Position numbers and translations under genes: made by a program
Assembly: GCA_903844815.1 (NCBI GenBank)
Contig: CAIMVD010000019.1
Coordinates: 1-58,589 of the forward strand
Origin: an uncultured Bacteroidota bacterium
GTDB taxonomy: Bacteria > Bacteroidota > Bacteroidia > Bacteroidales > VadinHA17
Reading direction: 5' to 3'
DNA: 58,589 nt
Part shown: one piece after another, positions 20,216 to 52,502 of the stretch
Layout: each line of letters begins with the position of its first letter
How positions within the stretch are numbered: position 1 is the stretch's first letter
Notes under the pieces: model-generated
What the model saw: the letters and a program-made list of their open reading frames with translations, nothing else
What the model was told of the DNA's origin: nothing
The model's database searches: none

Positions 20216-20233
20216 TTGATTAACAGTTTTAAG

Positions 20234-21187
20234 ATGGGTCGTTTAAATTTTGTTATAAGTATTTTGGTAATTTACTGCATGGCCGGATGTCAGTCTGGTC
20301 CGGAAAAAGTAACTATAGGCTATGTTCAGATAACACAGGATCCGGTTCTTGACGCCGCAAAATCTGGTGTTTTCAGGGCTCTGAGTGATTCGGGATTTGT
20401 CGATGGAATAAACATTAAGGTTCTTGATAACAATGCGCAGGGTGATTTGTCGATGATAAACACAATTCTTCAGTCACAGATTTCGCAAAACGTTGACCTT
20501 ATCATAACAAACAGCACTCCCTGTATGGCTGCTGCCGCACAGACAGTTAGGACCATCCCTGTTGTTTTTACTGTTGCTTTCGGTCCTGAACAGATCGGAA
20601 TGAAAACAGTTCCCGTAAACCTGTTCGGGATTTATGATCCCCTGAAAGCCGGCGAGTTTGTCGATTTGATCCAGGAATGTATTCCCGGGTTGAAACGCAT
20701 AGGCATCCCATATAATAATGCCGAGCCAAATGCTGAATATTCGGTAAAAGTTCTGAGCGGGGAGTTTTCCTCACGGGGCATCACGCTTTTAACTGCTGCA
20801 GTGACAAGTCCAAATGATATTCTTCAGGCAGGGCAATATCTTGCAGGACAAGAAATTGAAGCTTTTGTCGTTGCCGCTGACAATACTGTATATCTTGGTT
20901 TGCCGGTACTGGCGAAACTGGCGTCGGAGCAAAAAATCCCTTTGTTTGTTGCCGATCCTCTTCAGGCTCAAAAGGGGGCTGCAGTTGGATTTGGCGTTAA
21001 CTATGAACAGTGGGGATATCAGGCGGGTTTAAAGGCTGTCGAAATCCTCAAAGGCAGGCCTCCCGTAATAAACCGTATTGAGCCAATAGTGAATTATGAT
21101 CTCATCATTAACAGAAAAGCATGCAATGATCAGGGTCTTCAGGTACCCGAAAAGGTTGCAAATCGTGCAAAATCGTCTATTAATTAA
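20234..21187 (+). CDS. ABC transporter substrate-binding lipoprotein (PF04392 type), first copy
   Basis: The product (317 residues from the ATG at 20234; a TTG at 20216 is also in frame) has a lipobox CMAGC near residue 18 and a binding protein of the ABC_sub_bind/TrpX family. Recognisable segments are TIGYVQITQDPVLD, VDLIITNSTPCMAAA, IPVVFTVAFGP and the C-terminal GVNYEQWGYQAG. Family members bind small metabolites such as tryptophan, and the ligand here is unknown. It heads a tightly packed rightward operon with 9 bp to the next gene. Confidence 0.85.
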   Translation: MGRLNFVISILVIYCMAGCQSGPEKVTIGYVQITQDPVLDAAKSGVFRALSDSGFVDGINIKVLDNNAQGDLSMINTILQSQISQNVDLIITNSTPCMAAAAQTVRTIPVVFTVAFGPEQIGMKTVPVNLFGIYDPLKAGEFVDLIQECIPGLKRIGIPYNNAEPNAEYSVKVLSGEFSSRGITLLTAAVTSPNDILQAGQYLAGQEIEAFVVAADNTVYLGLPVLAKLASEQKIPLFVADPLQAQKGAAVGFGVNYEQWGYQAGLKAVEILKGRPPVINRIEPIVNYDLIINRKACNDQGLQVPEKVANRAKSSIN

Positions 21188-21196
21188 TCCGGTGCA

Positions 21197-22240
21197 ATGA
21201 AATCACTTTACCGGGGGATAATTGCCCTCATCCTTGTATCAGCTATTCTTCTTCTGTCGGATCTTCAGAACAGAGGCAGAACTTTCGGCAGGAAAGGCAG
21301 TGACTCCCTGAAACGCATCGTTTCCGGAAAGGTTAAACTTGCTCTTGTTCATTATGTCGACAGCCCTAATTCTGAGGATTGTGAAAAAGGAATTCGTAAT
21401 GCCCTGACGGAGAACAATCTGCAAGAGGATGAGGATTATACAATTAAAGTATACAACGCCCAGGGTGATGTATCTACACTTAACAGTATTTCCCAAAGTA
21501 TTGGAAGCGAAAAGTGGGACCTGGTATTTGCTATTTCAACGCCATCGGTTCAATTATTGACTAAAAAACTTCCTGAACAAAAAATTATATTTACAAATGT
21601 AGCTGATCCTGTAATTGCTGGCCTGGGAAAGTCGTTCGATGATCACTTGCCGAATGTTACAGGAGTTTCGACTATGAGCGATTTCGATGGCCTGATAAAA
21701 CTTTCAGCTATTCTCATGCCCGGATTGAAACTGGCAGGTACTGTTTATACTCCTTCCGAAATAAATTCCGTGGCCTATAAAGATTACCTGGTCAGGGCTG
21801 CAAAGAAAGCAGGTATTGAAGTAATTGCCGCACCGGCAAATTCTGCAACCGAAGTCATGGATGCTGCTAATTCGCTTGTGTCGCGTAATATCGAAGCATT
21901 CTGTCAGATCTCCGATAACCTGGTCGGCAGCAGCGGATCTTCTATAATAAAAGTTTCAAACGATAATAAAATTCCATGCTTTGGATTTGTTGCAAGCCAG
22001 TTCAACCTTGGAGCGATGGCTGTCTGCGCCCGCGACTACATACAGGCAGGATATGAAGCAGGACAAATGGGTATCGAGGTGCTGGCAGGAAAAAGCCCGG
22101 GACAGATACCATTCAGGTACGTGACAATGACCCATTATAGAGTAAACCGCGAAGCGGCATTATTTTTCGGTTTAACGATACCTGAAAACCTGTCTCAAAT
22201 TATTCCTGATGTAGAAATTATTGATAAGCTTAATAAATAA
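21197..22240 (+). CDS. ABC transporter substrate-binding protein (PF04392 type), second copy
   Basis: The 347-residue protein has an N-terminal membrane anchor with no lipobox cysteine (ILVSAILLLSDLQNR), then the same binding fold as its neighbour: KVYNAQGDVSTLNSI, IIFTNVADPVIAGLG, VTGVSTMSDFDGL and YEAGQMGIEVLAGKSPG. The anchor is nearly identical to that of the third copy at 25256, pointing to duplication within the locus. It lies 9 bp after the first copy and 11 bp before the STAS gene. Confidence 0.85.
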   Translation: MKSLYRGIIALILVSAILLLSDLQNRGRTFGRKGSDSLKRIVSGKVKLALVHYVDSPNSEDCEKGIRNALTENNLQEDEDYTIKVYNAQGDVSTLNSISQSIGSEKWDLVFAISTPSVQLLTKKLPEQKIIFTNVADPVIAGLGKSFDDHLPNVTGVSTMSDFDGLIKLSAILMPGLKLAGTVYTPSEINSVAYKDYLVRAAKKAGIEVIAAPANSATEVMDAANSLVSRNIEAFCQISDNLVGSSGSSIIKVSNDNKIPCFGFVASQFNLGAMAVCARDYIQAGYEAGQMGIEVLAGKSPGQIPFRYVTMTHYRVNREAALFFGLTIPENLSQIIPDVEIIDKLNK

Positions 22241-22251
22241 CATCATATTAA

Positions 22252-23472
22252 ATGGATAACAAACTGGATATACGCAGAGACGTTTCCGGAACCGAACAGT
22301 TAATCTTTCTTGAAGGCAGGCTTGATGCCAATTGGGCGGGGCATCTCGATGATTACCTGAACAATCTTGTCCGGGAAGGTTCATATCGTTTTAAACTGAA
22401 TATGTCGGGAGTTCAGTACCTGAGTTCTGCAGGGATAAGGATCCTGGTCAACCAGTATAAGAACATCAAAAAGCTTGGAGGCCTCTTTGTACTTGAGTCA
22501 TTATCGCCTGCCGTATCGGAGGTACTAAGTATGGTGGGAATGATAAACATCCTTACACAGGTTGTTTCTGAAACCTTACCGGTTGAAAAGGAGGAGGCCC
22601 TTTCCGTCGATAAAAAGGGCTATAGGTTTGTTAATAAAGTATTATCCGACAAACCCATGACCTTTAGTGTTTCCGGGCGTCCTGAACTTTCACTGAATTC
22701 AGGTTTCATCGCCTCCGATAATCTGAAAGTAAGGTTCGGTACCGGTAAGTATGGTATCGGCATAGGGGCAATTGGCGACGGATTTGAAGACTGTAAAAAC
22801 CGTTATGGCGAATTTATGGGCATAGGTGAGGCCCTGGTTTATAAACCTTCGGACGGGTCGAAATTGCCCGATTATGCCCTGAAAACGGGCAGACTTGAGC
22901 CTGAGATAAACTCGCTCTGCTCCCTTCAGGCTGAAGGCGCTTTCTCGAATCAGGTTACCTTTGAATCTAAAGAGCCTGATACATCTCTTTCGCTGGGGGA
23001 TATGGTCTCAGGTTTTGCTGAGATTTCGGGTCAGAAACGATTTATGTTTCTTGTAATCGCCGAAAGCGGCGGATTGGTAGGCGTAAGCCTTAGTTCTTCG
23101 CCAGCCACGGGAATGAATCTGTTTGATTTTCCGGGAATACGTGAAAATATCAATTTTACTACCGAACCAGCATGGCCCAGGATGCTGACCGTTTCTCTTG
23201 GGTTTTATGTTGAAGAGCCGGAGAAGGCAATAGCTCCTTTCCTTCGTCCTGTCAGCCCGGGATCATCTGCCTTCATTCATACTCATTCCGCAGTTTTTCC
23301 CTTCCAGGCATTGCCGAAAAATGAGACCTCTGCCAGTAAACTCGTTATGCACCTGTTTGAAAGCAGCATAGTTCAGGATGTAATGCATCTTATTTACGAT
23401 TCACGTGACATTGCCGGTCTGGGCGAAAGTACATTCAGGCAGGGTGTTGCCTGGATAGGCAAATTAAATTAA
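22252..23472 (+). CDS. STAS-domain protein with unrecognised C-terminal domain
   Basis: Residues 1-105 form a STAS domain of the SpoIIAA/RsbV type, with YLSSAGIR containing Ser59, aligned to the phosphorylated serine of SpoIIAA. The remaining 300 residues match no family I know. They include a glycine-rich stretch GIGIGAIGDGFED and an HTHSAVFPFQAL segment. The gene sits inside an ABC importer operon, between binding-protein and permease genes, so it probably links the transporter to the partner-switching proteins downstream. No signal peptide or membrane helix is visible. Confidence 0.8.
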   Translation: MDNKLDIRRDVSGTEQLIFLEGRLDANWAGHLDDYLNNLVREGSYRFKLNMSGVQYLSSAGIRILVNQYKNIKKLGGLFVLESLSPAVSEVLSMVGMINILTQVVSETLPVEKEEALSVDKKGYRFVNKVLSDKPMTFSVSGRPELSLNSGFIASDNLKVRFGTGKYGIGIGAIGDGFEDCKNRYGEFMGIGEALVYKPSDGSKLPDYALKTGRLEPEINSLCSLQAEGAFSNQVTFESKEPDTSLSLGDMVSGFAEISGQKRFMFLVIAESGGLVGVSLSSSPATGMNLFDFPGIRENINFTTEPAWPRMLTVSLGFYVEEPEKAIAPFLRPVSPGSSAFIHTHSAVFPFQALPKNETSASKLVMHLFESSIVQDVMHLIYDSRDIAGLGESTFRQGVAWIGKLN

Positions 23473-23489
23473 TCAAAAATATATATATA

Positions 23490-24422
23490 ATGACACTATT
23501 GATCGGATCAGTCACAATCGGCCTTATACTTGCGCTTCTGGCCCTGGGGATCTTTATCAGTTTCAGGATCTTTGATTTCCCCGATATAACGGCCGAGGGT
23601 TCCTTTACCTTTGGTGCCTCAATAACTGCTTCAATGATTATCGCCGGATTCAATCCTGTTATTGCTACGCTTGCTGCTTTTGCCGGAGGACTTCTCGCGG
23701 GCACTTCAACAGGCATTATCCATACGAAGTTCAAGGTAAATCCTCTCCTGTCGGGAATACTTGTAATGACCGCGCTCTATTCTGTTAACCTGCATGTAAT
23801 GGGAAAGAGCAATGTTCCGCTTCTTTCAGAGAAAACCCTTTTCACCTGGTTTGAGAATTTTTCAATTCAGGTTTCGGGTAAGGATGCAGTTTTTAATATT
23901 ATCGGATGGAATGTTCCTGCCAAAGATATCTGGACCTTATTGTTCTGCCTGCTTATTATAGTTGTCTTTAGTCTGATACTGCTGTGGTTTTTCCGTACCA
24001 ATTTAGGAACTGCAATGCGTGCCACAGGGGATAATGATCAGATGATCAGGGCGCTGGGGGTAAATACTAAGGGAATGATAATTTTCGGGGTGGCATTATC
24101 AAACGGATTTATAGCATTGTCGGGCTCGATGCTGGCACAGTTCCAGGGATTTGCCGATGTGCAGATGGGTATTGGAATGATGGTGTGGGGTCTTGCGAGC
24201 GTCATCATCGGAGAGGCACTTATAAGCGAAAACAGTCTTGGTCAGGTGATTGCCGGCGCAGTTATCGGTGCAGTCCTTTTCAGGCTCCTTGTTGCAATTG
24301 CGCTTCGTTGGGGAATGAATCCTAACGATCTTAAGCTTATCACAGCGGCATTTGTTTTTATTGCCCTGGTTTTGCCGGGGTTTATGAAGAGGACTAAAAA
24401 GATTAAATTAAACAGACAATGA
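23490..24422 (+). CDS. ABC transporter permease
   Basis: The 310-residue protein has eight or more membrane helices and matches the branched-chain-amino-acid-type permease family (BPD_transp_2) used with TrpX-like binding proteins. Typical segments are FRIFDFPDITAEGSFTFGA near the N-terminus, and LGTAMRATGDNDQMIRALGVN followed by GVALSNGFIALSGSMLAQ. The ATPase gene begins inside its stop codon (ATGA overlap). The transported compound is unknown. Confidence 0.9.
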   Translation: MTLLIGSVTIGLILALLALGIFISFRIFDFPDITAEGSFTFGASITASMIIAGFNPVIATLAAFAGGLLAGTSTGIIHTKFKVNPLLSGILVMTALYSVNLHVMGKSNVPLLSEKTLFTWFENFSIQVSGKDAVFNIIGWNVPAKDIWTLLFCLLIIVVFSLILLWFFRTNLGTAMRATGDNDQMIRALGVNTKGMIIFGVALSNGFIALSGSMLAQFQGFADVQMGIGMMVWGLASVIIGEALISENSLGQVIAGAVIGAVLFRLLVAIALRWGMNPNDLKLITAAFVFIALVLPGFMKRTKKIKLNRQ

Positions 24423-25237
24423 ATATGCTGGAAATAAAAAACCTCTGCAAGACCTTCAATGCCGGAACTATAAATGAGGTAATGTCGTTGCAGGAAGTGA
24501 ATCTCACAATCGAGGAGGGTAGCTTTGTTTGCGTACTGGGTACAAATGGTTCGGGGAAATCGACTCTCCTGAATGCAGTTGCAGGCACATTTTTAACTGA
24601 TGCCGGTACTATTTCATTGAATGGGCGGGAAATTACCAAATGGCCCGAGCACAAGCGGGCCTGTTATATTGGACGGGTATTTCAAAATCCCTTCAGCGGT
24701 ACAGCTCCGGCCATGTCGATAGCCGAAAACCTCTCTCTTGCCGCCAAACGAGGTAAAAAACGAGGTCTGGGATGGGGACTGCCGGTTTCCGTAAGAGGAG
24801 AATTGCAAACTCGGATAAAAGCTTTGAACATGGGGCTTGAAGACCGGCTTGATTCACCTATCGGGAAGCTTTCCGGAGGCCAGCGACAGGCCCTTACACT
24901 GCTAATGTCTAGCTGGATACGGCCTGAACTGCTTCTTCTTGATGAACATACTGCTGCTCTCGATCCAAAAACAGCTGCCAAAGTCATAGAACTTACCGAA
25001 AAGATTGTCACTGAAGGTAAGCTGACTACTCTGATGGTGACCCATTCAATGCAACAAGCCGTTAATCTTGGCGACAGAATTATAATGATGCATCAGGGCC
25101 GTATTAAATATGATTTCAGAGGCAATGATAAAAAAAGGCTTAAGGTACCTGATCTGCTCGCTCTCTTTGACGATCTCCGAAGGAAGGACCAGATCGACGG
25201 AACCGTCGCTGAATTGCTTCTTGAAAATTATGTATAG
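24419..25237 (+). CDS. ABC transporter ATP-binding protein
   Basis: The 272-residue protein is a complete ABC ATPase: Walker A GTNGSGKS (about 42-49), Q-loop in RVFQNPFSGT, signature LSGGQRQ (about 147-153), Walker B LLLLDEHTAALDP, and the switch histidine in MVTHSMQQAV. The Walker B region has EHTAALDP where most have EPTxALDP, as in other TrpZ-type ATPases. It is translationally coupled to the permease by an ATGA overlap. The third binding protein follows after 18 bp. Confidence 0.93.
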   Translation: MNMLEIKNLCKTFNAGTINEVMSLQEVNLTIEEGSFVCVLGTNGSGKSTLLNAVAGTFLTDAGTISLNGREITKWPEHKRACYIGRVFQNPFSGTAPAMSIAENLSLAAKRGKKRGLGWGLPVSVRGELQTRIKALNMGLEDRLDSPIGKLSGGQRQALTLLMSSWIRPELLLLDEHTAALDPKTAAKVIELTEKIVTEGKLTTLMVTHSMQQAVNLGDRIIMMHQGRIKYDFRGNDKKRLKVPDLLALFDDLRRKDQIDGTVAELLLENYV

Positions 25238-25255
25238 TATTTTAGAAATGAAGTT

Positions 25256-26278
25256 ATGAAGCAATTTCTACGCCCCGTCCTGTTTTTAGTTGCCGTTAGT
25301 GCAATATTACTCCTGTCTGATCTGCATAACAGGAATGGGAAGATTCGGAACACGGAAAAAACCAGGATTGCAGTATTCAAGATTAATTCCAATAAGATCC
25401 TTGAAGAGACTGAAAATGGTGTATTGAATGCGATAAGTAATTCTGAAGCCTATAAAAAAGGTCTCATTGAAATACAAAGGTATTGTGCTGAAGGCGATAT
25501 GCCAACTGCAAATACAATTGCCACAAATATTGTCAGTGAAAAATTCGATATAGTGATATCAATCAGCACTCCGGCACTTCAGATCATGGCCAACGCCAAC
25601 AAACACGGAGAGGTGCTGCATGTTTTCTGTGCCGTTACTTCTCCTGTTGCCGCAGGTGTTGGGATAACCGGTACTCAAACAGATCAGCACCCGGCTCACC
25701 TGGTTGGGATAGGTACCTTTCAGCCGGTTGAAGGAATTTTTAGAATTGCCCGCATTATGAAGCCTGATCTTAAGAAAGTAGGAGTAGTATGGTGTACGAG
25801 TGAAACCTGTTCGGAAGCTTGCGTTAAAAAAGCTCGTCTTATATGTAAAGAGCTTGGTATTGAGCTTGTTGAAATGAGCGTAGAAAATGTTTCGCAGGTC
25901 TATGAAGCTGCACTTGCTGTTAGTTCAAAAGGGGTGGAGGCGCTCTGGATTGGCGGCGATAACGTAATAGAATCCGCAATTGAAATGTATATAGGGGCTG
26001 CCAGCAAAAGCGGAATACCCGTATTTACAAACAATCCGAAGGACGCTTTTAAAGGAGCTATGGCAAACCTGGGAGCAAACTACTTCGAAGTGGGCAGGCA
26101 GGCTGGCGATATGGCAATTGCACTGATTAACGGACTCTCCACCAGTAAGATAGAAATTAAAAATGTTGTTCCGGAACGGCTTTTTATCAATGACTCAATC
26201 CGTAATATCGTAAAGGAAAACTGGCTTCTTCCCGATGATCTGGCAGCCAAAACCGACTCCATCATCCGGAAGAAATAA
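25256..26278 (+). CDS. ABC transporter substrate-binding protein (PF04392 type), third copy
   Basis: The 340-residue product has an N-terminal anchor (VAVSAILLLSDLHNR) almost the same as that of the second copy, then the PF04392-type fold: TEKTRIAVFKINSN, DIVISISTPALQIMA, CAVTSPVAAGVGI and GANYFEVGRQAGDMAIALINGLS. Having three binding proteins around one permease and ATPase suggests several ligands or a sensing role for one of them. It is the last gene before a 211-bp gap with a palindromic repeat. Confidence 0.85.
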   Translation: MKQFLRPVLFLVAVSAILLLSDLHNRNGKIRNTEKTRIAVFKINSNKILEETENGVLNAISNSEAYKKGLIEIQRYCAEGDMPTANTIATNIVSEKFDIVISISTPALQIMANANKHGEVLHVFCAVTSPVAAGVGITGTQTDQHPAHLVGIGTFQPVEGIFRIARIMKPDLKKVGVVWCTSETCSEACVKKARLICKELGIELVEMSVENVSQVYEAALAVSSKGVEALWIGGDNVIESAIEMYIGAASKSGIPVFTNNPKDAFKGAMANLGANYFEVGRQAGDMAIALINGLSTSKIEIKNVVPERLFINDSIRNIVKENWLLPDDLAAKTDSIIRKK

Positions 26279-26372
26279 ACTCTTAAATTAACAACCATAA
26301 TAGTTACATTAGTGTATGTTTTATTAACCTGAATAATCAATAATACTTAAATCCTTAGAGCCCTTAGTGAAA

Positions 26373-26429
26373 CCCTTTGTTCCCTTTGTGGTAAAAAAAT
26401 AAATCTGAAACCACAAAGGGCACAAAGGA
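26373..26429. repeat. Intergenic palindromic repeat, copy 1
   Basis: A perfect 11-bp inverted repeat (CCCTTTGTGGT at 26382-26392 and ACCACAAAGGG at 26410-26420) extends outward to about 19 bp with one mismatch. The 17-nt A-rich loop contains AAATCTGAA. A second copy with the same loop but CCTTCGTGGT arms lies at 31851-31904. On the right, ACAAAGGA-type units repeat further. It sits between two co-directional genes and may weaken read-through from the ABC genes into the sensor genes. Confidence 0.75.
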
Positions 26430-26489
26430 TGGCGCAAAGGACACAAAGGAAATACCATTTGAAAATCAAATACTACCGTTAATACTTTA

Positions 26490-27566
26490 TTGATATTGGA
26501 AACATCCCGTTCAAATCGCTTTTCATGCAGTGCTTTCCCATTGATAAGCATCATCATTGCGTTTATGCTTCTTTTTTCATGCAGGAATAACCCGCCGTCA
26601 ACAATCAACGAGGGTGACGCGGACAAGATGGTTCAGCCCGATACCGTCAAAAAACTGTTATCGGTAAGGCTGCTTCCATATTGGGTTCCCTCTGCCCAGT
26701 TCGCGGGTTATTATGTAGGAGTAGAAAAGGGCATCTTTGAAAAGCATGGAATTTCTCTTGAGATCCTTCCCTTTGACCCTCAATTGTCTTCTGCTTCAGC
26801 AATAAAGGATAAAAAACCTGATTTTGCCCTTCTCTGGCTGGTAAACGCAATGGAAGTCAGGGAAAAGGGGGTTGGAATTGTAAATATTTGCCAGTTTTCG
26901 TCAAGGTCTTCTCTCATGCTTATTACAAAAAAAAGCAGCGGCATCTCTAAAATTGAAGATATGAATGGAAAAAAGGCAGCCATCTGGATTGGATTCGAAC
27001 AACAGCCACGTCTGCTTTTTGGCAAGTATAAACTCAATGTGGAGATGATTCCCATTGGCAGTTCGAATAGTCTTTTTCTTCAGGATGGAGTAGATATCAT
27101 TAATGCCAATTGGTTTGATGAGTATCATTCGATTTTGAATAACGGTATTGCTGAGGATGAACTTAATAAATTCTTTCTTGCCGATTACGGATTTAACTTT
27201 CTTGAAGATGGTTTGTATTGTCTTAATCAAAAGATGCGCGATGATCCACAACTATGCCGAAATTTCGTTGAGGCTGTAATCGAAAGCTGGAACTATGCCT
27301 TTAGTCATGAGGATGAGGCCATTGAAATTGTGATTAAATATGCGAAAGCCCATAATCAGCCGGTTAATAAATCCCATCAGAGCTGGATGCTCAAAGCTTA
27401 TAAAGCATTATATATTCCTGACGGGAAAGATTCAATTAATACCCAACTAACCAGAAATGACTATGAAACCACTCAGCAGTTAATGATCGATAGCAGGCTC
27501 TTAACACTGTATATCCCTTATGATTCAATTTATAAACCCTGTCTCGGATCGAACGTAAACCGCTGA
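26490..27566 (+). CDS. THI5/NMT1-like ABC substrate-binding lipoprotein
   Basis: The 358-residue protein has a lipobox (LLFSC near residue 31) and the NMT1/THI5-like binding fold: LLPYWVPSAQFAGYYVGVEK, FEKHGISLEILPFDP, KPDFALLWLVNAMEVR and FVEAVIESWNYAFSHEDEAI. Relatives bind thiamine precursors, nitrate, sulfonates or riboflavin. The start is a TTG at 26490, with another TTG two codons on, and I see no suitable ATG. No permease of its own is next to it. The histidine kinase follows by 9 bp, so it may be a ligand sensor for that kinase. Confidence 0.8.
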   Translation: MILETSRSNRFSCSAFPLISIIIAFMLLFSCRNNPPSTINEGDADKMVQPDTVKKLLSVRLLPYWVPSAQFAGYYVGVEKGIFEKHGISLEILPFDPQLSSASAIKDKKPDFALLWLVNAMEVREKGVGIVNICQFSSRSSLMLITKKSSGISKIEDMNGKKAAIWIGFEQQPRLLFGKYKLNVEMIPIGSSNSLFLQDGVDIINANWFDEYHSILNNGIAEDELNKFFLADYGFNFLEDGLYCLNQKMRDDPQLCRNFVEAVIESWNYAFSHEDEAIEIVIKYAKAHNQPVNKSHQSWMLKAYKALYIPDGKDSINTQLTRNDYETTQQLMIDSRLLTLYIPYDSIYKPCLGSNVNR

Positions 27567-27575
27567 TCCCGCTGA

Positions 27576-30230
27576 ATGAAAAAGTATATGGTAAAAAAAC
27601 TTCAGTTTAAGTTACGAATGGGTCTGGCACTTAAGATGATTATGTTTGTCCTTATCGGGATAATGATAATATTTACTCTTATTTTCCACTTTACTTTAAA
27701 GATTACCAGGACAATAGTCGTTGAAAACCTGAAGAAAAATGCAGAATACCTCACACTGAATACTGTTTCGAAAATTGAAAAAGAGCTTGGCGCAATCCAG
27801 CGTGTTCCTGATAATTTTGTTGCCATCTTTCAGGAAAAAAAGATGGAAGAGTCAGAAATGAAACAGCTTGTGAAGATGATGGTTGAGAATAACAGCGAAA
27901 TCATAGGGGCATGTATTGCATTCAGACCTTACTATCATAGTCCGACTGAGAAATTTTATTCTTTGTATTATTACCGGAATAACAACAGGATCGACTTCCT
28001 TAATCTCGGGAACGATAAATACGATTACTATTATATGGACTGGTACCAGCTCCCAAAAGAGCTTGGTAAATCAATCTGGAGCGAGCCCTATTTTGACACC
28101 GGTGGAGCAAATATGTTGCTTACTACCTATTCGGTACCTGTTTACCTTACAAATGAAGGGGAGAAAGAGTTTGCCGGGATTCTTACAATTGATGTATCAC
28201 TCGACTGGCTCCAGAAAAATGTGAACGATATTGAGGTCTATAAAACCGGATACGGGTTTATGATTTCCAAAACGGGTGTGATGGTTACCCACCCGATAAA
28301 GGATTTTATAATGAATGAGACCATGTTCAGCATAGCCGATATGCAAAAATCAGGGGAACTTTATAAGATCGGGCGAAACATGATTAACGGGCAGAGCAGC
28401 TTTGCGGAGCTCGAATACCGTAATATTAAAACAGGGAAGCTCAGCTGGATATCCTATGCACCTGTTAAATTGAACGGATGGTCACTTGGCATTGTTTTTC
28501 CGGTTGATGAATTTATGGCTGAGGCTTACAGGCTTCGAACCATATTAATTGCTCTTGGTTTTGGCGGTGCCTTCATCCTGATTCTGATCACCGTACTGAT
28601 AGCGCGTTCCATCACAAAGCCATTGCGCAGGCTTACAATTGCTGCGGAAACCTTTGCCGGCGGCGGATTTGATATTGAACTTCCCGATATAAATTCCAAT
28701 GATGAGATTGGCAGGTTAAATTCAGCATTTCATTTTATGCAGGGGAAACTGATTGCTACAATCAGCGATCTGCAGGATACGTCTGTTCAGCTTCAGAAGT
28801 CGAACGAAAAACTTGAGGAATACAGCCGATCACTCGAGGATAAGGTTGAATTACGGACGGCTGAACTCAGTAATAAGAACAAGGAACTTGATGCCGCATT
28901 CGTCAATATCAGGACTCTTAATGAAATAGGGAAAAAAATAACTTCCACCCTGAATATCGAATCGATCCAGGAAATTGTATATGAACATGTTAACTCCCTG
29001 ATGGATGCTGGCAGTTTTCTTATTATGCTCTACAACGATGCGGAAAAGAAACTGGAATGCAAGCTTTCAATTGAGAAAGGGGAAAAACTTCCTCCTTTTG
29101 AGATCCCAATGACTGAAAAGAACCGTTTTGCAGTATGGTGTGTTGAACATGCAAGCCCCGTGTTTATGAACGACATCGATCTGGAATACAGCAGGTATGT
29201 TCCCTTCAGGGCAAAACCAAAGGCAGGAGAAACGGTGTCTTCGATAATCTACCTGCCAATGATGATTGAGAATCGGATTGTTGGTGTAATCTCGGCTCAG
29301 AGTTTCCAAAAGAATGCCTACAATCAATACCAGTTCGATATGCTGTCGAACCTTGCAAACTTTGTTGCAATTGCATTCGATAATGCATTCGCGTATGAAA
29401 AGATCAACAGGGCAAACAACGAACTAAAGGCAGCTCAGGCTCAGCTGGTCCAGTCGGAAAAGATGGCTTCGCTGGGACAGCTTACGGCAGGTATCGCCCA
29501 TGAAATTAAGAACCCCCTGAATTTTGTAAATAATTTCTCCGAGCTCTCCGTTGAACTTACCGGAGAAGTAATTGAGGAAGTTGATAAATTTTCAAATGTT
29601 GTTCCTGCTAAGGATATTGAATATGTGAAAGGAATACTTCAGGACATTGAAGGCAATGTGAAAAAGATCAATGAACACGGCAAACGTGCCGACAGTATTA
29701 TCAGGGGCATGTTACTTCATTCCCGGGGGAAGGCGGGCGAAATGCAGCCAACTGACCTGAACGTCCTTCTGGCCGAATATGTAGCCCTGGGATATCATGG
29801 ACTACGAGCTACCGACAATACCTTCAATATCAAAATAGAATCAGACTACGACAAGGGTCTGGGATTGGTAAAAGTTGTGCCGCAGGATCTCAGCAGGGTT
29901 TTCCTGAACATCATAAATAATGCCTGCTATTCAACGGCTCAGAAGAAGAAAGAACTTAAGGAAGCCTATTTCCCAATACTCAGGGTAGCCACTCAAAAAT
30001 CAGAGAGGCATGTTACAATAAGGATATGGGATAATGGCAAAGGGATACCCAAAAGCATCCTGGAACGGGTATTTAATCCCTTTTTTACAACCAAACCTGC
30101 GGGCTCAGGTACGGGTCTTGGACTTTCGATAAGCTATGATATTATAGTTCAGGCACATCATGGTGAGCTGAAAGTTTTGTCGGAAGAGGGTGAATATGCT
30201 GAATTTATAATAACATTACCTTTAACCTAA
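27576..30230 (+). CDS. Cache-HAMP-GAF sensor histidine kinase
   Basis: The 884-residue protein has a first membrane helix (about 20-42), an extracytoplasmic dCache-like domain (about 50-315), a second helix (about 322-344) with a HAMP linker, a coiled coil (about 395-440), a GAF domain (about 445-605), and a kinase core. The phospho-accepting His642 lies in GIAHEIKNPLNFVNNF. The ATPase boxes are NIINNA, DNGKGI, FFTTKP and GTGLGLS. It is preceded by a binding-protein gene (9 bp) and followed by a response regulator (22 bp), its likely partner. Confidence 0.92.
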   Translation: MKKYMVKKLQFKLRMGLALKMIMFVLIGIMIIFTLIFHFTLKITRTIVVENLKKNAEYLTLNTVSKIEKELGAIQRVPDNFVAIFQEKKMEESEMKQLVKMMVENNSEIIGACIAFRPYYHSPTEKFYSLYYYRNNNRIDFLNLGNDKYDYYYMDWYQLPKELGKSIWSEPYFDTGGANMLLTTYSVPVYLTNEGEKEFAGILTIDVSLDWLQKNVNDIEVYKTGYGFMISKTGVMVTHPIKDFIMNETMFSIADMQKSGELYKIGRNMINGQSSFAELEYRNIKTGKLSWISYAPVKLNGWSLGIVFPVDEFMAEAYRLRTILIALGFGGAFILILITVLIARSITKPLRRLTIAAETFAGGGFDIELPDINSNDEIGRLNSAFHFMQGKLIATISDLQDTSVQLQKSNEKLEEYSRSLEDKVELRTAELSNKNKELDAAFVNIRTLNEIGKKITSTLNIESIQEIVYEHVNSLMDAGSFLIMLYNDAEKKLECKLSIEKGEKLPPFEIPMTEKNRFAVWCVEHASPVFMNDIDLEYSRYVPFRAKPKAGETVSSIIYLPMMIENRIVGVISAQSFQKNAYNQYQFDMLSNLANFVAIAFDNAFAYEKINRANNELKAAQAQLVQSEKMASLGQLTAGIAHEIKNPLNFVNNFSELSVELTGEVIEEVDKFSNVVPAKDIEYVKGILQDIEGNVKKINEHGKRADSIIRGMLLHSRGKAGEMQPTDLNVLLAEYVALGYHGLRATDNTFNIKIESDYDKGLGLVKVVPQDLSRVFLNIINNACYSTAQKKKELKEAYFPILRVATQKSERHVTIRIWDNGKGIPKSILERVFNPFFTTKPAGSGTGLGLSISYDIIVQAHHGELKVLSEEGEYAEFIITLPLT

Positions 30231-30252
30231 TATCACAAGATATACTTGTACT

Positions 30253-31431
30253 ATGAATAAAGAATTGATAATGAATGTAAAGATAATGGTCGTGGATGAT
30301 GAGGTAGACCTTGAGCCGCTGATCAGACAAAAATTCCGGAGACAGATAAGGGATGGTGTTTATGATTTTGTCTTTGCACATAACGGTCTGGAAGCGCTTT
30401 CTATGCTGATTGAGCAGCCTGATATCCGGCTTATTATGTCCGATATCAATATGCCCGAAATGGACGGACTTACCTTGCTTACCAGGCTGAAAGAGCTGAA
30501 AAATCCCTGGCTTAAGACTGTAATAGTTTCGGCTTACGGTGATATGGAGAATATACGTACTGCCATGAACAGGGGCGCCTTTGATTTCCTTACGAAGCCC
30601 ATAAGCTTTGATGACCTCGAGATTACCTTCAATAAAACTCTCGATGAGATCAGAATGATATGGCAGAGCATGCAGGAGCACGATCAGCTGGTATCGATTC
30701 AGCAGGATTTGCAAATCGCAAGGGAGATTCAACAGGCTATTCTTCCAAAGACTTTTCCTCCTTTCCCGGGTCGTAATGAGTTTTCCATTTTCGGATCGAT
30801 GATTGCTGCCAAAGAGGTGGGAGGCGATTTCTTTGACTTCTTTCTTATCGATAACGAACGGCTTGGTTTTGTGATTGGTGATGTATCGGGAAAAGGTGTT
30901 CCGGCAGCTATTTTTATGGCTGTAAGCAGGACATTAATACGGGCGACCGGGTTAAAAGGAATCTCTGCGAGTGAATGCATGAGTTATGTGAACAGTCTGC
31001 TTTGCAACGAAAGTGTGTCGTGCATGTTTGTAACTGTTTTCTACGGCATACTTAATATCCTTACGGGAGAGATTGAATATGTTAATGCCGGTCATAATCC
31101 TCCCTATATCCTTTCGGGAAAAAATGTGATAAAGCTCGATATGACAAGTGGCATCATTTTAGGGTGCATGGATGATTTTGAATTCGGGTCGAAGAAAATT
31201 ACCTTAAACCCTGGTGATCAGCTATTCCTTTATACCGATGGCGTTACCGAAGCCTTTAATGTAAACGATGAACAGTTTAGTGATGAACGTTTGGTTAGTT
31301 ACCTTGAAGGTCATCCCCCGGATTCGATTGATATGCTTGTAAAGGAATCTTTCCGCCTGGTAACCGAATTCGCTGAAGGCGCACCACAGTCGGACGATAT
31401 AACAGTGCTTGCCATAAAGTATAATGGTTAA
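30253..31431 (+). CDS. Response regulator with PP2C/SpoIIE-type phosphatase output
   Basis: The 392-residue protein has a receiver domain (about 9-130) with acidic residues in VVDDE, phospho-accepting Asp64 in MSDINMPEMDG and the conserved lysine in FLTKPIS. A short coiled linker follows, then a RsbU/SpoIIE PP2C phosphatase domain (about 175-390) with metal-binding aspartates in GGDFFD and GDVSGKG, and the QSDDIT segment. Such proteins dephosphorylate STAS antagonists. The STAS gene 51 bp downstream is the obvious substrate. A second in-frame ATG at 30271 is possible. Confidence 0.92.
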   Translation: MNKELIMNVKIMVVDDEVDLEPLIRQKFRRQIRDGVYDFVFAHNGLEALSMLIEQPDIRLIMSDINMPEMDGLTLLTRLKELKNPWLKTVIVSAYGDMENIRTAMNRGAFDFLTKPISFDDLEITFNKTLDEIRMIWQSMQEHDQLVSIQQDLQIAREIQQAILPKTFPPFPGRNEFSIFGSMIAAKEVGGDFFDFFLIDNERLGFVIGDVSGKGVPAAIFMAVSRTLIRATGLKGISASECMSYVNSLLCNESVSCMFVTVFYGILNILTGEIEYVNAGHNPPYILSGKNVIKLDMTSGIILGCMDDFEFGSKKITLNPGDQLFLYTDGVTEAFNVNDEQFSDERLVSYLEGHPPDSIDMLVKESFRLVTEFAEGAPQSDDITVLAIKYNG

Positions 31432-31482
31432 TAAGGTTGAACCTGATATTGTGAAAGTTAAAATATTTAAAATACAATAATT

Positions 31483-31815
31483 ATGAATTTAGAGATTGAA
31501 TCAGTAAATGATGTTAAAATAGTTGTAGTACAGGGACGTCTGGACACTACAAATGCAGGTGAATTCGAACAGCAAATGACAGAGATACTTAACGGCGGTT
31601 GCACCAGGCTGATTCTCGACTGCACCGCGCTGAATTATATCAGCAGTTCAGGTTTAAGGGTTTTTCTTGTTATCCAGAAAAAGATGAAGCTTGTAAACGG
31701 CCAGTTCAGGCTATTCGGCCTTCAGCCGGCAATAAGGGAGATCTTCGATATTGCAGGGTTCTCGGTAATCCTTACTATTCTGCCTGACAGGGATTTCGCA
31801 TTAAAATCGATTTAG
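31483..31815 (+). CDS. STAS-domain anti-sigma factor antagonist-like protein
   Basis: The 110-residue protein is a complete single STAS domain of the RsbV/SpoIIAA type: VVVQGRLDTTNAGEFEQ, then LILDCTALNYISSSGLR, where Ser55 aligns with the phosphorylated serine. It follows the PP2C response regulator, which should dephosphorylate it. Its kinase partner is probably the RsbW-like protein at 36158 or the RsbW-like part of the ABC ATPase at 31936. No sigma-B type sigma gene is nearby, so the output may not be a sigma factor. Confidence 0.9.
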   Translation: MNLEIESVNDVKIVVVQGRLDTTNAGEFEQQMTEILNGGCTRLILDCTALNYISSSGLRVFLVIQKKMKLVNGQFRLFGLQPAIREIFDIAGFSVILTILPDRDFALKSI

Positions 31816-31850
31816 CAGCTCCTATAACTACTTTGTGACCTTTGAGTAAT

Positions 31851-31904
31851 CCTTCGCGACCTTCGTGGTAAAAAAGAAATCCGAAACCACGAAGGACGGG
31901 AAGG
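31851..31904. repeat. Intergenic palindromic repeat, copy 2 (likely bidirectional terminator)
   Basis: A perfect 10-bp inverted repeat (CCTTCGTGGT at 31860-31869, ACCACGAAGG at 31886-31895) with a 16-nt loop contains AAATCCGAA. It closely resembles copy 1 at 26373, but with TTCGTGG arms in place of TTTGTGG, a compensated base-pair change. It lies between the convergent STAS and ABC ATPase genes, where it could end transcription both ways. Confidence 0.7.
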
Positions 31905-31935
31905 ATATGTAAAACTAGATCATTAGTTAGTTCGG

Positions 31936-33018
31936 TTATTTCACCTTCACCTTTAAACGGAGATTATTTTTTCCGTTCTCATAATTGTATTCAACACTCT
32001 TGCACCGGTCTTTTATAAGCAATATTCCTATTTCATCCTCCATAGCACCCGGAGTGAGCGGATTCACAGGAGTGCCGGCACTCTCGCAAACCAGTTCCAC
32101 ATCGCCCTCTTTTTCCGAATAGGAGAGAGCTATTGTTATATCGGAATAGTCAGTCTGAAGAAGTATGACCTCCTCGGCAAGAAGCTGAACATTTGCACTC
32201 ACGTCTTTCGCTATCACATGTTTTTCGCAAAACATTTCCATCTCTGCCTGCAGGGCGTACAAGTCATAATCCCTTCCTGTTATCCTGAACTCTAAGCTTC
32301 GTATCCTGTGAATGAATGCCCTGGTTTTTTCCCTTTGAGGGCTTTCAAAGATCTGTTCGGGTGTCCCATCTTCATAAATAATTCCTTCATCCATATAAAA
32401 TACACGGCTCGAGATATTCCGGGCAAATTCCATTTCGTGGGTAACAATAATCATTGTCATACCTTCTCTCACGAGGCGGCGGATAACAGCAAGTACTTCG
32501 CTTACCATAGTCGGATCAAGAGCCGAGGTTGGTTCATCGAAAAGCATTACTTCGGGTTCCATTACCAGGCATCGTGCTATTGCGACCCTCTGCTTTTGTC
32601 CGCCCGAAAGTTCATCGGGAAAGTTGTAAGCTTTTTCAGCGAGCCCGACAAGCTTAAGATATTCAAATGCTTTAGTATTCGTTTCCGTTTTCTTCTTCCC
32701 GAGTAATTTTACAGGGCCAATTGTAAGGTTTTCCAGAATGGTAAGGTGAGAATACAGATTAAACGATTGAAATACCATTCCCATTTTCTGGCGGATTTTG
32801 GGAACATTTGTTTTTTTATCCAGCAGGGAAACTCCATCAATATAAATTGAGCCTCCGGTTGGAGCTTCCAACAGGTTCAGACAGCGAAGAAAAGTACTTT
32901 TCCCTGTTCCGGAAGGACCAATTATTGAGATAACTTCACCTTTTTGGATGTCAGCATTTACATCTTTCAGAACTACCAGTTCACCAAAATGTTTGGAAAG
33001 ATTTCTTATTGTAATCAT
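31936..33018 (-). CDS. Amino-acid-type ABC ATPase fused to degenerate RsbW-like domain
   Basis: Residues 1-240 form a GlnQ-like ATPase with all motifs: Walker A GPSGTGKS 34-41, Gln84, LSGGQ 137-141, Walker B LFDEP and His194. Ordinary GlnQ proteins end here. Residues 241-360 instead align with the RsbW-like protein at 36158: AEEVILL against EEAFTNI, and the tail [20 protein letters not shown] against GIFLIRKIMDTVEYKRFQNK. The N-box asparagine is Leu287 and the G1 aspartate is Ser313, so this part probably does not bind ATP. The start codon overlaps the upstream stop (TAATG). The domain call is my own alignment by eye. Confidence 0.85.
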
Positions 33019-35990
33019 TATTTTGTCTCCACTACTCTTTTAACGCGTTTTCTTTTTGGATCAACCGAAACCTCAATATATCCTAATGCCCAGGTCAGTA
33101 TCCAGGATACTAATAAATAGACTAATGCTGCCATAATAAGCGGAAAGAAAGCATCGAAAGTACGGCTGCGGATAATATCGCTGGCTTTGGTGAGATCCTG
33201 AACTGCGATATATCCTACAACAGAGGTCATTTTCACAAGAGAAATAAACTCTCCTTTATAAACGGGAAATACCCGGCGCAAAGCCTGAGGCATTATAATA
33301 TAAATAAATGTCTGGATTTTTGTGAATCCTCCTGCTATCCCGGCTTCCTTTTGTCCGACATCAATACTCTCAATAGATGTCCTGAACATTTCGGAGACAT
33401 AAGCCGCAAAATTAAGACCAAATGCCAACACCGCCACGAATGCAGGATTAATGTTAATCGAGGCGAAGACGATGTAATATATTATCATTAATAAAACGAG
33501 AACAGGTGTTCCTCGCAATAGTGAAACGTATATTTTAGCCCCGGAAGAAAGAACTTTCCGTTTTGACATACGCATAAAACAGACCAGCCCCCCGAGTAAA
33601 GTACCCACAAGAGCTGAAAAAACGGAGATTATCACCGTAAGCGATAATCCTTTAAGAATAAGTAAATACCTTTTCTCACGAATAATGTTGCTTGAAAAGC
33701 TGTTTGAGATTTTTGTCCACAAAGACAATTTGACAATTTTGGTTTCTTCACCGGAATATTTATCAATGTTCGTTTTAAGAGCAACCACCCCTGTGCTAAA
33801 GTTGGCATAGGTGTCGGAAAAATCAATCTGATTACCGCGCTCTTTGGTGATGGCAATCCCATCCGATATCATTTGAGCCTTTCCGGCAGAGAGTGCGGCC
33901 ACCAGCGATGCAAAATCCATCGTTACGAATTCGAGATTGTAGTTTTTCCTCTCTGCAAAGTATCGTATCATCTCGATATCCAGACCAACATACTCTCCAT
34001 TCATAAAGGCAACATAAGGAAGGTCGTCAACAGAAACCGCGACTGTAAGCTTTTTGCCCTCGGTTGGATTTTTGAAAGGTGGCATTATGGCTGCTTCAGG
34101 ATCATCAATAAGCCATCTTTTGTGCATGAGATCATATGTGCCATCTTTCCGGATCTCTTTAAGGAAGTCATTAAATTCATCCCTCAGGGCTGATTCCTTC
34201 TTATTGAACCCAACTCCTAACGGCAACGTGAGCACATCATCGGTCAACAGTCCCAGCTCGGGAATCTTCTTTAAAATAATCCGGGCGGTGATTAAATCAA
34301 ACATAGCAGCATCAATTTTCCCCGACGAAACTGAAAGGATAAGGTCGGCAGTACCTTCGAACCGGAAGATTTGAGCATTGGGATACTTTTTGGAAATATA
34401 CCCGTCATAAACCGTGCCTGTGAAGATGCCTATTTTTTTATCCGCCAGGTCTTCTGCTTTTGACATCCTGCCTGAAGATGTCGGCTCCATGTATTTCTTT
34501 TTTGCTATAATGCTGACACCCGACTCAAAGTACGGATCGGAAAAACTGATCTGTTTTTCTCTCTCCTCAGTGACCATCAGAGAGCAGGTGATGAGATCGA
34601 TTTTATCGATTATAAGCGAAGCTAACATACTGCCGAACTGAAGATTTACAGGCATAAACTCCTTTCCTGTGTAAGCGGCAAAACGACTCGAGAGTTCAAT
34701 GTCAAAGCCTGTCAGACTGCCATCCTTCATGATAGTAAAAGGCATTCCCAGATCGCTGACAACGCCAACTCTGAGTACTCCCTCGACTTTACCCTTCGGT
34801 ATTTCAGGCATCTGCGACAGGCCCTTCGTCATCCATCTGTCAACCATGTCATCATAAACACCGTTTGTTTTTATTTCCTTTAAAAATGCATTAAACTGAT
34901 TCCTGAGCTGTTCATTCTGCTTGTTAATACCGGCAGCAATCGGAATAGAGAAGACATTTTTGGCTAATAAGCCCAACTCATCATTAGTTTTAAAAACATC
35001 TGCCAGAGAAACCTGATCATAAAAGACTGCATCAACCTTTTCCAGATTCAGGGCCATAAGCATGTCGGGGACGTTCTGATACTGCATTATCCTGGCATTT
35101 GGGTAGTTTTTGGTTGCATAAGCGTCGTGCATTGATCCCATTAAAACACCGATTCTTTTATCTTTTATATCTTCTTCAGTTCTGAACCTGAGAGATGAAG
35201 CAGGCTGATCCGTTTTTACAGTTCTGACAACTGCCGCTATTCCACTGGGATAATAGCATTGCGAAAAGAGCACTTTTTTTGCCCTCTCCTCAGTTATCGA
35301 AATGCCGGCTCCTATCATGTCAACCTTCCCGGCAATGAGCGCAGGAAGCATGGCTGCGAATTCCATGTCGACGATCTCAAGCTGCTTTCCAAGGCTATTC
35401 GCAACACGGCAGGCAAACTCAACATCAAATCCCACTATCTTTCTGTTGGCAGCCATGAACGACATAGGTTCCGTTACTGCTGCAGTTCCGAATTTCAAGG
35501 TCCCGTTCAGGCCCTTGAGTTCTATTTCCGGCATGGGGGCAGGTTCTCCTTTCAAAGGAAACCACCGTTTCATCATATCATCATAGGTGCCGTCAGCTTT
35601 TATCCCGGCCAATACTTCATCAATAGCTTTCTTAAGATCTTCATTCTGAAGCTGAACAGCAAAGCCGTACTGATCATCGACAAGAAGTTCTGACAAAACA
35701 GTCAGTCCTTCATTCTTCCCTGCAATATTCTGAAGTATGGGTTTGTCATAAGCTGCAACGTCGGCATTTCCGTTTTTAACAGCCATAGCGCAGTCAAGAA
35801 CGCTGTTGAAATACTTTATTTTGGCGTCAGGGAATTTTTTTAGAACAAACTGATCAGCCACCGTTCCCGTGGGAACAGCAAAGGTCTTACCACCCTTTAG
35901 CATTGCAAGAGAAGTAATATTGGTTTCTTTTTTACCGCAACCGCTGACTATCAAAATAGAAAGGGCAAGAAGGCATAAGTATCGTCTCAT
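33018..35990 (-). CDS. Fusion of split and tandem SBP_bac_3 domains with an ABC permease
   Basis: The 990-residue protein has a lipobox (VSGC, Cys18). Residues 24-144 are only the second half of an SBP_bac_3 domain. Residues 158-388 and 402-627 are two whole domains. Residues 646-740 are only a first half. Residues 775-985 are a GlnP/HisM-type permease with the [12 protein letters not shown] coupling loop. The two halves could close together into a third complete binding domain. Together with the overlapping ATPase gene it forms a whole polar amino acid importer in two genes. Confidence 0.9.
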
Positions 35991-36015
35991 AATGTGTATT
36001 TTCCCCGTATTGTAT

Positions 36016-36023
36016 CAAATATA
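36016..36023 (-). promoter_or_regulatory. Candidate -7 element for the SBP-permease/ATPase operon
   Basis: On the minus strand this reads TATATTTG, an exact TAnnTTTG match, 25 nt upstream of the ATG at 35990. No convincing -33 element was found at the normal distance. Confidence 0.4.
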
Positions 36024-36090
36024 GCAATTATTTCGATCGCTTTTTATGGTTTTGTCAAATAGAGCTAAAATAAATAGTTGTGAAATTTAA

Positions 36091-36119
36091 TTGAATAGGA
36101 AAGAAAATGGTTATTTTTG
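36091..36119 (+). promoter_or_regulatory. Candidate promoter for the RsbW-like gene
   Basis: TATTTTTG at 36112-36119 matches the -7 consensus and a TTG at 36091-36093 lies 18 nt upstream. The box and spacing are the same as those at the nusB promoter candidate. The GTG start is 38 nt downstream. Confidence 0.5.
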
Positions 36120-36157
36120 AGTGAGTAGAAAAATCCCTGTACTGTTAATAAATAGAT

Positions 36158-36580
36158 GTGGAGAAGAGAGCTGGAAATTTACATGTTGAAAACCGGATTG
36201 AAGAATTAGCCGCAATAGAAACCTTTCTCGAAGAGCTTGGTGACGACTGGGAGCTTAATCCTTCGCTGGTCCTTTCTCTTAACCTGGTTCTTGAGGAGGC
36301 ATTTACAAATATTGTAAATTACGGATTTGATGACAGTGATATTCACATTGTTGAGTTCGGTTTCAGTCTCGATTCAGGAATACTGGCTATCGAGATCTGC
36401 GATGACGGTCACGAGTGGGATCCTACACTTAAAGCAGCTCCGGATATAACTTTATCAGCCGAAGAGAGACCAATAGGAGGGCTGGGCATTTTTCTCATCA
36501 GGAAGATTATGGATACCGTTGAATACAAAAGGTTCCAAAACAAGAACTTTTTAATCCTTACAAAAAAGGTTGAAGCTTAA
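36158..36580 (+). CDS. RsbW-like anti-sigma/partner-switch serine kinase
   Basis: The 140-residue protein, with a GTG start, is a single GHKL ATPase domain of the RsbW/SpoIIAB type. The N-box has Glu47 and Asn51 in EEAFTNIVNYG, the G1 box is DDGHEWDP (Asp83, Gly84), and the G2 region is GGLGIFLI (about 107-114). RsbW proteins phosphorylate STAS antagonists and sequester a target protein. STAS partners exist at 31483, 22252 and 50368. It is divergent from the ABC fusion genes and 70 bp upstream of the DUF4384-type gene. Confidence 0.9.
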   Translation: MEKRAGNLHVENRIEELAAIETFLEELGDDWELNPSLVLSLNLVLEEAFTNIVNYGFDDSDIHIVEFGFSLDSGILAIEICDDGHEWDPTLKAAPDITLSAEERPIGGLGIFLIRKIMDTVEYKRFQNKNFLILTKKVEA

Positions 36581-49863: not shown

Positions 49864-50367
49864 CGGCAAATATTTATTTTTTAAGTCATTACTCTTCAAA
49901 AATAAGACCAGATTCAAGGACAAATTCTTAATCACGACTTCCTGAAATCCAAATAACCTATGAAGAGAGATATTTCTAAATCCATCTGTAAATCTAAATA
50001 TCTTATATCTTGAATTCCCCCTAAATATTAAGAACATAAAAATATAAAAACATCTGAATATTAGCAAAATAAATAAAATATTAAGCCCGGGTTATCTACG
50101 TGCCTAATTACGATTCCCCGTTCATTAATAATATGATCCGGCATTTATTTTGCAATGGTTTCTATCACTCCCGTATCTGTAAACCAAATTGTGTGCCAGA
50201 AATATGCGATTAAGATAAAACAGTTATTCCAAATATGCAATAAACTGTGTATCTGTGCTTAATTTCTTTTGTGCACGGTTGATATCAAGGCGGGTGCCCG
50301 GAGTATTTAATTATGTATTCAAAAAAACCGAACATAAGTTCGGAAATGTGACGGGAAAAAATATTAT
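49864..50367. other. Intergenic region upstream of the giant gene
   Basis: About 500 bp of AT-rich sequence with no frame I would call. The promoter of the leftward T9SS gene should be here, but I found no exact TAnnTTTG match on the minus strand. Confidence 0.5.
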
Positions 50368-50679
50368 TCAGGAGATATTAAGTATTTCATCCAGTCCCGA
50401 AATCTTAAAAGTTTTTTTCACAAAAGGCTGACAATTGATTATAGAAAACCTGCCGGCTCCCTCTTTTTTTGCATGGGTTAAACAGATCCTTATAAATGAT
50501 GAGGCAACATAGTCCACATCCTTAAGATCAAAGACCAGGTTGTTTTCTTTCTCAGGATTCTGAAGTCCTGGTTCAGCCTGAATCAACTCTGTTACCTTTG
50601 CTACGGCAAGAGTATCCATCCGGCCTTTAAATGAGAGCGTCGTAATTCCTTCATCGTCATTATAGTAGAATGATATCAT
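50368..50679 (-). CDS. STAS-domain protein downstream of aldehyde dehydrogenase
   Basis: The 103-residue product is a single STAS domain: ITTLSFKGRMDTLAVAKV, then LVFDLKDVDYVASSFIR. Ser60 aligns with the SpoIIAA phosphoserine, though the usual following glycine is Phe62. It begins 11 bp after the aldehyde dehydrogenase stop and is probably co-transcribed with it. It could be a third substrate for the RsbW-like protein at 36158. Confidence 0.85.
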   Translation of the reverse strand: MISFYYNDDEGITTLSFKGRMDTLAVAKVTELIQAEPGLQNPEKENNLVFDLKDVDYVASSFIRICLTHAKKEGAGRFSIINCQPFVKKTFKISGLDEILNIS

Positions 50680-50690
50680 GTTGGTCGTTA

Positions 50691-52124: not shown

Positions 52125-52502
52125 GTGTTATATATTTAAATAAGGTTCTCAATAGTGCCATTAATTCCCCCCGCATCTAAGATATCAATTATTATGATAA
52201 TAACAGATAAAAAATGATCGGTTATTTAACAAAAATGAGCCTTAAATGACAGAGCTAAAATAATATGTGTTCCTGTATTCCGGTAGCGATGGTTTAGTTT
52301 CTCATGAAGAGATCCCCCCGTTTAACTGTCGGGTTAGCAGAAATCTTGAAAATTTTCCATACATTTATTGGGATAATTGACCTTAACATTTTTTTCATGG
52401 GGTAGGGGCCTCTATCGGAAGAATATTATGCACTCCGCAGGGGAAACTGATTAAGTGTCGAACAGTCAATGGTTTTTAAATGTGACCACGAATTTCTGTG
52501 TT
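52125..52502. other. Divergent intergenic region between aldehyde dehydrogenase and hpdB
   Basis: This AT-rich stretch should contain promoters for both directions. I found no exact TAnnTTTG box. AGAGCTAAAATAA at 52250-52262 also occurs upstream of the RsbW-like gene at 36061-36073. A GTG-started extension of hpdB covers 52455-52502 but is probably not translated. Confidence 0.4.

Follow-up and report, generated by a model that had tools for sequence, protein, structure and literature searches.

Introduction

Partner switching has mainly been seen as a means of transcription control, and the regulation of ATP-binding cassette (ABC) importers after their assembly is, to our knowledge, poorly known. 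Here, we describe a set of partner-switching and ABC importer genes at positions 20216-36580 of a 58,589-nucleotide stretch of DNA from an uncultured Bacteroidota bacterium; the whole stretch is referred to as the window. The sigma B system of Bacillus cereus (RsbK/RsbY-RsbV-RsbW) combines a histidine kinase, a response regulator with a PP2C phosphatase, a STAS protein and a serine kinase, and the window has the same four parts. Phosphotransfer from RsbK to RsbY has been reported (PMC9912610). In contrast to the B. cereus system, no sigma gene was recognized in the gene runs described here; its place is taken by transporter genes, along with a dead RsbW domain that is part of a transporter.

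A preliminary description of this DNA named a sigma factor as what known partner switches control, which is too broad: in Pseudomonas aeruginosa, SiaC, whose state depends on SiaA and SiaB, acts on a diguanylate cyclase. SiaABCD is a phosphatase-kinase-partner switch in which the unphosphorylated partner binds and activates the enzyme (PMC8457831). It resembles the system proposed here in acting on an enzyme, and SiaB ranks second among the structural matches of the ATPase tail described below; its target, however, is a cyclase bound at the stalk, not a transporter (PMC8457831). In MlaFEDB, the STAS protein MlaB binds the ABC ATPase MlaF; phosphoregulation was proposed and left open, and the excerpt consulted gives no experimental evidence of MlaB phosphorylation (PMC7367683). 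The system proposed here would likewise have an ABC ATPase bound by a STAS protein; it differs in that MlaF serves phospholipid transport with a C-terminal extension of about 25 residues rather than an RsbW-fold tail (PMC7367683, same excerpt). Among the openly licensed papers listed by literature searches, judged by titles and the beginnings of abstracts, we found no RsbW-tailed transporter or importer-directed partner switch, which does not imply absence from print.

Results

Open reading frames and Pfam matches confirmed that ABC importers are interleaved with partner-switching genes at 20216-36580, and the switch is complete. On the plus strand, a response regulator with an RsbU/SpoIIE-type PP2C output (30253-31431; PF00072 E 1.2e-21, PF07228 E 1.6e-50) precedes an RsbV-like STAS protein of 110 residues (31483-31815; PF01740 E 3.9e-21; TIGR00377 above cut-off), whose loop YISSSGLR holds the Ser/Thr acceptor of the SS(A/S)G type. 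The RsbW-like HATPase_c_2 serine kinase (36158-36580, plus strand; PF13581 E 5.8e-23) retains both the N-box Asn and the G1 Asp. Upstream of the regulator are an NMT1/THI5-like lipoprotein (26490-27566, plus strand; PF09084 E 1.7e-26) and a sensor kinase with its own dCache sensor (27576-30230, plus strand; dCache-HAMP-GAF-HisKA-HATPase by Pfam). Counted from first start codons, the spaces between the NMT1, kinase, regulator-PP2C and STAS genes are 9, 22 and 51 bases. Pfam scans of 20 window genes found no sigma gene, in agreement with the preliminary description.

Importer 2 is of the GlnQ/HisP type by Pfam, with an ABC ATPase, SBP_bac_3 and BPD_transp_1. Its GlnQ-like ATPase (31936-33018, minus strand; 360 residues) has GlnQ as its best NCBIfam match, at 305.4 bits, below the curated equivalog cut-off of 379. 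It further differs from GlnQ/HisP-type polar amino-acid importers in that its binding domains, four SBP_bac_3 stretches, are fused to the BPD_transp_1 permease (33018-35990, minus strand; PF00497 E 2e-90, PF00528 E 9e-17), and in that residues 1-240 of the ATPase are followed by an RsbW-fold tail (residues about 245-360; DNA 31939-32286). The RsbW-like tail recognized in the preliminary description was borne out by profile and fold; alone, it scores only E 0.0011 against HATPase_c_2, under the Pfam cut-off. Structure prediction gives the tail a confident fold (predicted local distance difference test score, pLDDT, 95), which is the GHKL fold of RsbW. An ACT/NIL-like or MalK-like regulatory domain was considered and is not favored; the fold matches are RsbW kin. 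A sequence search of the PDB with the tail or its profile gave nothing useful.

Both the N-box Asn and the G1 Asp are lost from the window tail; among 67 tails, the Asn was found in four and the Asp in none. Since these ATP-site residues are lost, the tail is, as judged from sequence, a pseudo-kinase domain and not a kinase. An earlier tally gave Asn 22/24 and Asp 22/24 for RsbW proteins versus 2/52 and 0/52 for tails; it excludes L193, and the G1 position of L177 is Asn there and Asp in the later alignment. Five RsbW labels were dropped before the later alignment, four of which the earlier tally included: L187 4622 (N-box Ser), L190 (another subgroup), L061 and L064 (counted with the MATE and SDF fusions, respectively) and L193, absent from both, which resembles a conventional histidine kinase.

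The tail ATPases recur with transporter genes and, less often, with switch genes. In 65 of 68 loci, they adjoin SBP_bac_3/BPD_transp_1 genes or form fusions with them; of the other three, L049 and L061 begin near a contig end, and in L064 no such gene was seen. Removal of a duplicate (L261 = L062) left 67 loci, including the window. A PP2C, plain STAS or RsbW gene lies within 10 kb of 13 of these 67, versus 1 of 48 tail-less homologues (Fisher P 0.004), or 12/66 versus 1/48 when the window is excluded (P 0.006), with P values that assume independent genomes and neighborhood domain profiles built from window seeds. The scan that yielded the 48 controls also yielded 31 of the tails; the match is imperfect, since most controls are titled Firmicutes and many tails are from the order of the window. 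The Lachnospiraceae loci L232, L235 and L246 were first picked for nearby RsbW matches, after which the count was extended to every copy down to E 1.8e-21, 16 in all; G513 (L235, E 2e-11) entered solely through nearby RsbW matches, and its removal gives 12/66. Weaker matches that may be further tails (e.g., G548:C11, 375 residues) are outside the count. In 12 of the 13 loci, the switch genes are on the same strand as the tail ATPase, the window being the exception.

At the genome level, the sample from the order of the window comprised 295 genomes, of which 18 have tail ATPases, that of G100 appearing broken. A strong RsbU-type PP2C is present in all 18, and in 72 of the 295 overall; this cut-off (E<=1e-43) was set after the table was seen, the table was transcribed by hand, and only ten candidates were scored in genomes with many. 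Tail ATPase and STAS-acetolactate decarboxylase (STAS-ALDC) protein, the latter typified by the window gene at 22252, served as markers of the two importers. They co-occur in 12 genomes, with about 1 expected (18 x 19 / 295). Inside the 72 strong-PP2C genomes this association is weaker and still present (P 3e-5), and among 183 genera each marker occurs in 15, with 10 in common.

Recurrence of the switch with an importer was found elsewhere, including on contigs labelled as another phylum. G319 holds L062 (titled Oribacterium), and we take it to belong to Lachnospiraceae; of 250 genomes from its family, 14 have strong copies of the tail ATPase, 16 altogether. Others lie on contigs titled Treponema, Akkermansiaceae, Fibrobacter, Synergistaceae and Selenomonadaceae. 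Several runs are compact. L056, titled Bacteroidales, has permease, binding protein, ATPase and tail as one frame, followed by dCache-PP2C, RsbW and STAS; L163, from the order of the window, has a binding protein-permease fusion, the tailed ATPase and dCache-PP2C-RsbW. In the Lachnospiraceae sample, L258 has STAS, dCache-PP2C, binding protein-permease, the tailed ATPase and an RsbW gene truncated by the contig end, and L235 has STAS, PP2C-RsbW, binding protein, permease and the tailed ATPase.

Each half of the locus recurs separately with partner-switch genes, and both are adjacent in two of the 12 genomes with both markers, the window and G196. Thus, the possibility raised in the preliminary description that related genomes always keep the halves apart does not hold, yet they are apart in the other ten. 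G196 carries both on one strand, in eleven open frames over about 13.4 kb: NMT1, dCache kinase, regulator-PP2C, RsbW, STAS, ABC_sub_bind, STAS-ALDC, permease, ATPase, binding protein-permease and tailed ATPase. The NMT1-kinase-regulator order is thus also that of the window. This is the gene set of the window in another arrangement, which argues for a functional unit over chance.

Two side observations concern the tails. In L125 (G100:C18:67000-86868), the tail ATPase frame is short (296 residues) and the adjoining binding and permease frames are broken, with a decayed or misassembled appearance. L262:9586-10017 (G565:C27) is a stand-alone frame of 144 residues, outside any ATPase, with a score of 66 bits against the tail profile.

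Importer 1 is encoded entirely on the plus strand. It comprises an ABC_sub_bind lipoprotein (20216-21187; PF04392 E 3e-49), a second ABC_sub_bind protein (21197-22240; PF04392 E 4e-48), a BPD_transp_2 permease (23490-24422; PF02653 E 2.5e-29) and an ABC ATPase without a tail (24419-25237; PF00005 E 3.5e-26); a third ABC_sub_bind protein follows (25256-26278; PF04392 E 1.5e-37). ABC_sub_bind, BPD_transp_2 and ATPase are the components of TrpXYZ-type importers, and TrpX (NF041285) is the sole NCBIfam match of the second binding protein at E<=0.001. In contrast to that type, the match reaches only 171.6 bits against the equivalog cut-off of 390, and a STAS-ALDC gene (22252-23472) lies within the operon. 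Its 406-residue product has a STAS domain (about 1-110) with the loop YLSSAGIR and, overlooked in the preliminary description, a second domain of about 280 residues (about 130-406). The latter has the acetolactate decarboxylase fold and no Pfam family match at E<=10, and it contains an invariant HxH. STAS-ALDC genes show co-location in 11 of 19 cases, scored by eye; the STAS-ALDC count leaves out G131 (E 8.5e-4, 822 residues), and G052, G187 and G241 are on contigs of 6-10 kb.

RsbW-like domains were also seen on other transporters. MATE-type carriers with a C-terminal RsbW-like domain number 18 frames, from loci picked for such matches and thus sampled with bias; 9/18 retain the Asn and 12/18 the Asp, and many adjoin PP2C, RsbW or STAS genes. 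These fusions (L061:3050-4849, L232:6304-8046, L233, L234, L236-L246) are frequent among the matches of the Lachnospiraceae sample; Pfam reports MatE plus HATPase_c_2 in L061 and MatE alone in L232. In Na+:dicarboxylate-type symporters (L064:14602-16260, L241:11422-13014, L260:78-1730), the N-terminal stretch matches a degenerate RsbW domain weakly, by our own profile, and Pfam reports no RsbW-like domain on L064 or L241. Near tail ATPases or PP2C genes, some STAS domains are joined to an APH-like kinase domain (L055:3-1121, L238:10711-12303, L246:13723-14952, L247:4478-5656; L238 also with HATPase_c_2). The long kinases were considered as binding-protein fusions and rejected as such; the 1285-residue kinase of L182 has two-component propeller repeats instead.

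Downstream of the locus, two caspase-like (Peptidase_C14) proteins with Glucodextran_B matches (37615-39312 and 40148-41779) flank a gene for 212 residues. A 2303-residue frame (43156-50067) consists of repeated DYDNDGDLDI blocks, which presumably correspond to the FG-GAP/VCBS repeats of secreted proteins. The genes of a small STAS protein of atypical sequence, an aldehyde dehydrogenase and a glycyl-radical enzyme are neighbors at 50368-55193. This third STAS protein (50368-50679, minus strand) was excluded from the system because of its atypical loop YVASSFIR and its position 14 kb away, 3' of the aldehyde dehydrogenase gene.

Discussion

Our analysis somewhat favors a partner switch that works without a sigma factor and has nutrient import as its output. 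The sensor kinase, possibly aided by the adjoining NMT1 lipoprotein, would phosphorylate the receiver of the regulator-PP2C, as its domains suggest. The PP2C would then dephosphorylate STAS protein 31483 at the Ser of its SSSG loop, and the RsbW-like kinase 36158 would re-phosphorylate it, as their intact residues imply. Unphosphorylated STAS protein may leave RsbW and dock on the tail of the importer 2 ATPase. The tail has lost its ATP-site residues, and therefore it should not phosphorylate and release its partner, acting as a receptor rather than a kinase. By holding on to the STAS protein for which RsbW also competes, it could serve as a stable receptor, with the pump as second partner. 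Docking would alter the ATPase cycle and hence uptake; activation is our guess from SiaC and MlaB.

Several observations weigh against this reading. Of the 25 genomes that carry at least one marker, 20 have more than one sigma factor with region 3, and of the 12 that carry both, 10 have the two importers in separate places. Importer 1 also recurs with the switch in the absence of a tailed ATPase. Of the 67 tail ATPases, 54, some of them on short contigs, lack any recognized gene for PP2C, plain STAS or RsbW within 10 kb, and even the conserved Glu is lost in some tails (kept in 59/67). In MlaFB, moreover, replacing the acceptor-site Thr with Ala lowered ATPase activity, yet MlaB still bound, a poor fit with simple phosphoregulation (PMC7367683). 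Because importer 1 is found with the switch and no tail, the tail cannot be the sole output. STAS protein 22252 is the probable coupling part for importer 1, since the position of its gene inside the transporter operon is fixed, and its acetolactate-decarboxylase-like domain may bind the imported compound or its product.

The abundance of sigma factors, with at least two Sigma70_r3 matches in those 20 carrier genomes, and the classical logic of RsbUVW and SpoIIAB-AA would suit control in trans of a sigma factor or other transcription regulator, with the ABC genes as a co-located regulon and the tail as a vestige. We consider this quite improbable. Five of the 25 carriers have a single match, presumably the primary sigma factor, and thus no second sigma factor of SigB/SigF build was found there as a possible target; the two matches of the window genome lie on other contigs (C33, C88); and the confidently predicted fold of the window tail, as well as the retention of the tail in distant lineages, is unlike a vestige.

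The 54 tail ATPases without nearby switch genes would fit a private allosteric domain, binding a small ligand or dimerizing, like the tails of MetN and MalK, with a coincidental neighborhood. This strikes us as very improbable given the excess over controls (13/67 versus 1/48), the co-occurrence with RsbU-type PP2C in 18/18 genomes and a fold that is that of a STAS-binding family. Signal flow may also be reversed, with the importers sensing and the tail or STAS-ALDC protein shifting STAS availability by transport state toward a real target elsewhere (transcription, cyclic di-GMP or another enzyme). The dCache-PP2C, RsbW and STAS loci away from tail ATPases (e.g., L174, L181, L186, L188, L189) and the presence of strong PP2C in 72 of 295 genomes, with the tail in only 18, speak for such a flow. 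It is nevertheless unlikely, since the switch has sensors of its own (dCache kinase or dCache-PP2C) and transporter genes are the only candidate targets recognized in the recurrent runs, whose unlabelled neighbors were partly scanned.

The proposal of the preliminary description that STAS proteins control the importer is thus partly supported, at the level of genomes and folds, by the switch without a sigma gene, the tail and the recurrence. The STAS binding, the phosphorylation and the drive of the kinase by exported binding proteins that it envisages are putative, and the kinase has a dCache sensor of its own. The gene set is real and recurrent, and represents a novel form of partner switching if docking holds. 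On biased sampling, the fusions on other carriers would extend the idea beyond a single ABC importer, to transporters at large. Several unrelated kinds of transporter (GlnQ-type ABC ATPases, MATE-type and Na+:dicarboxylate-type carriers) bear RsbW-like domains, often without kinase residues. We tentatively raise the possibility, which falls short of our favored reading, that PP2C-STAS-RsbW switches control uptake or efflux by direct STAS docking, widespread and unrecognized in gut and environmental bacteria.

Compact runs from what are, by label, two phyla bring together a sensor, a phosphatase, a STAS protein, a kinase and an ATPase whose putative receptor is shaped like a kinase. This makes direct phospho-gating of uptake testable with a few purified proteins. 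If true, it would provide a function for those PP2C/STAS/RsbW loci in Bacteroidota and Lachnospiraceae for which no sigma target is evident.

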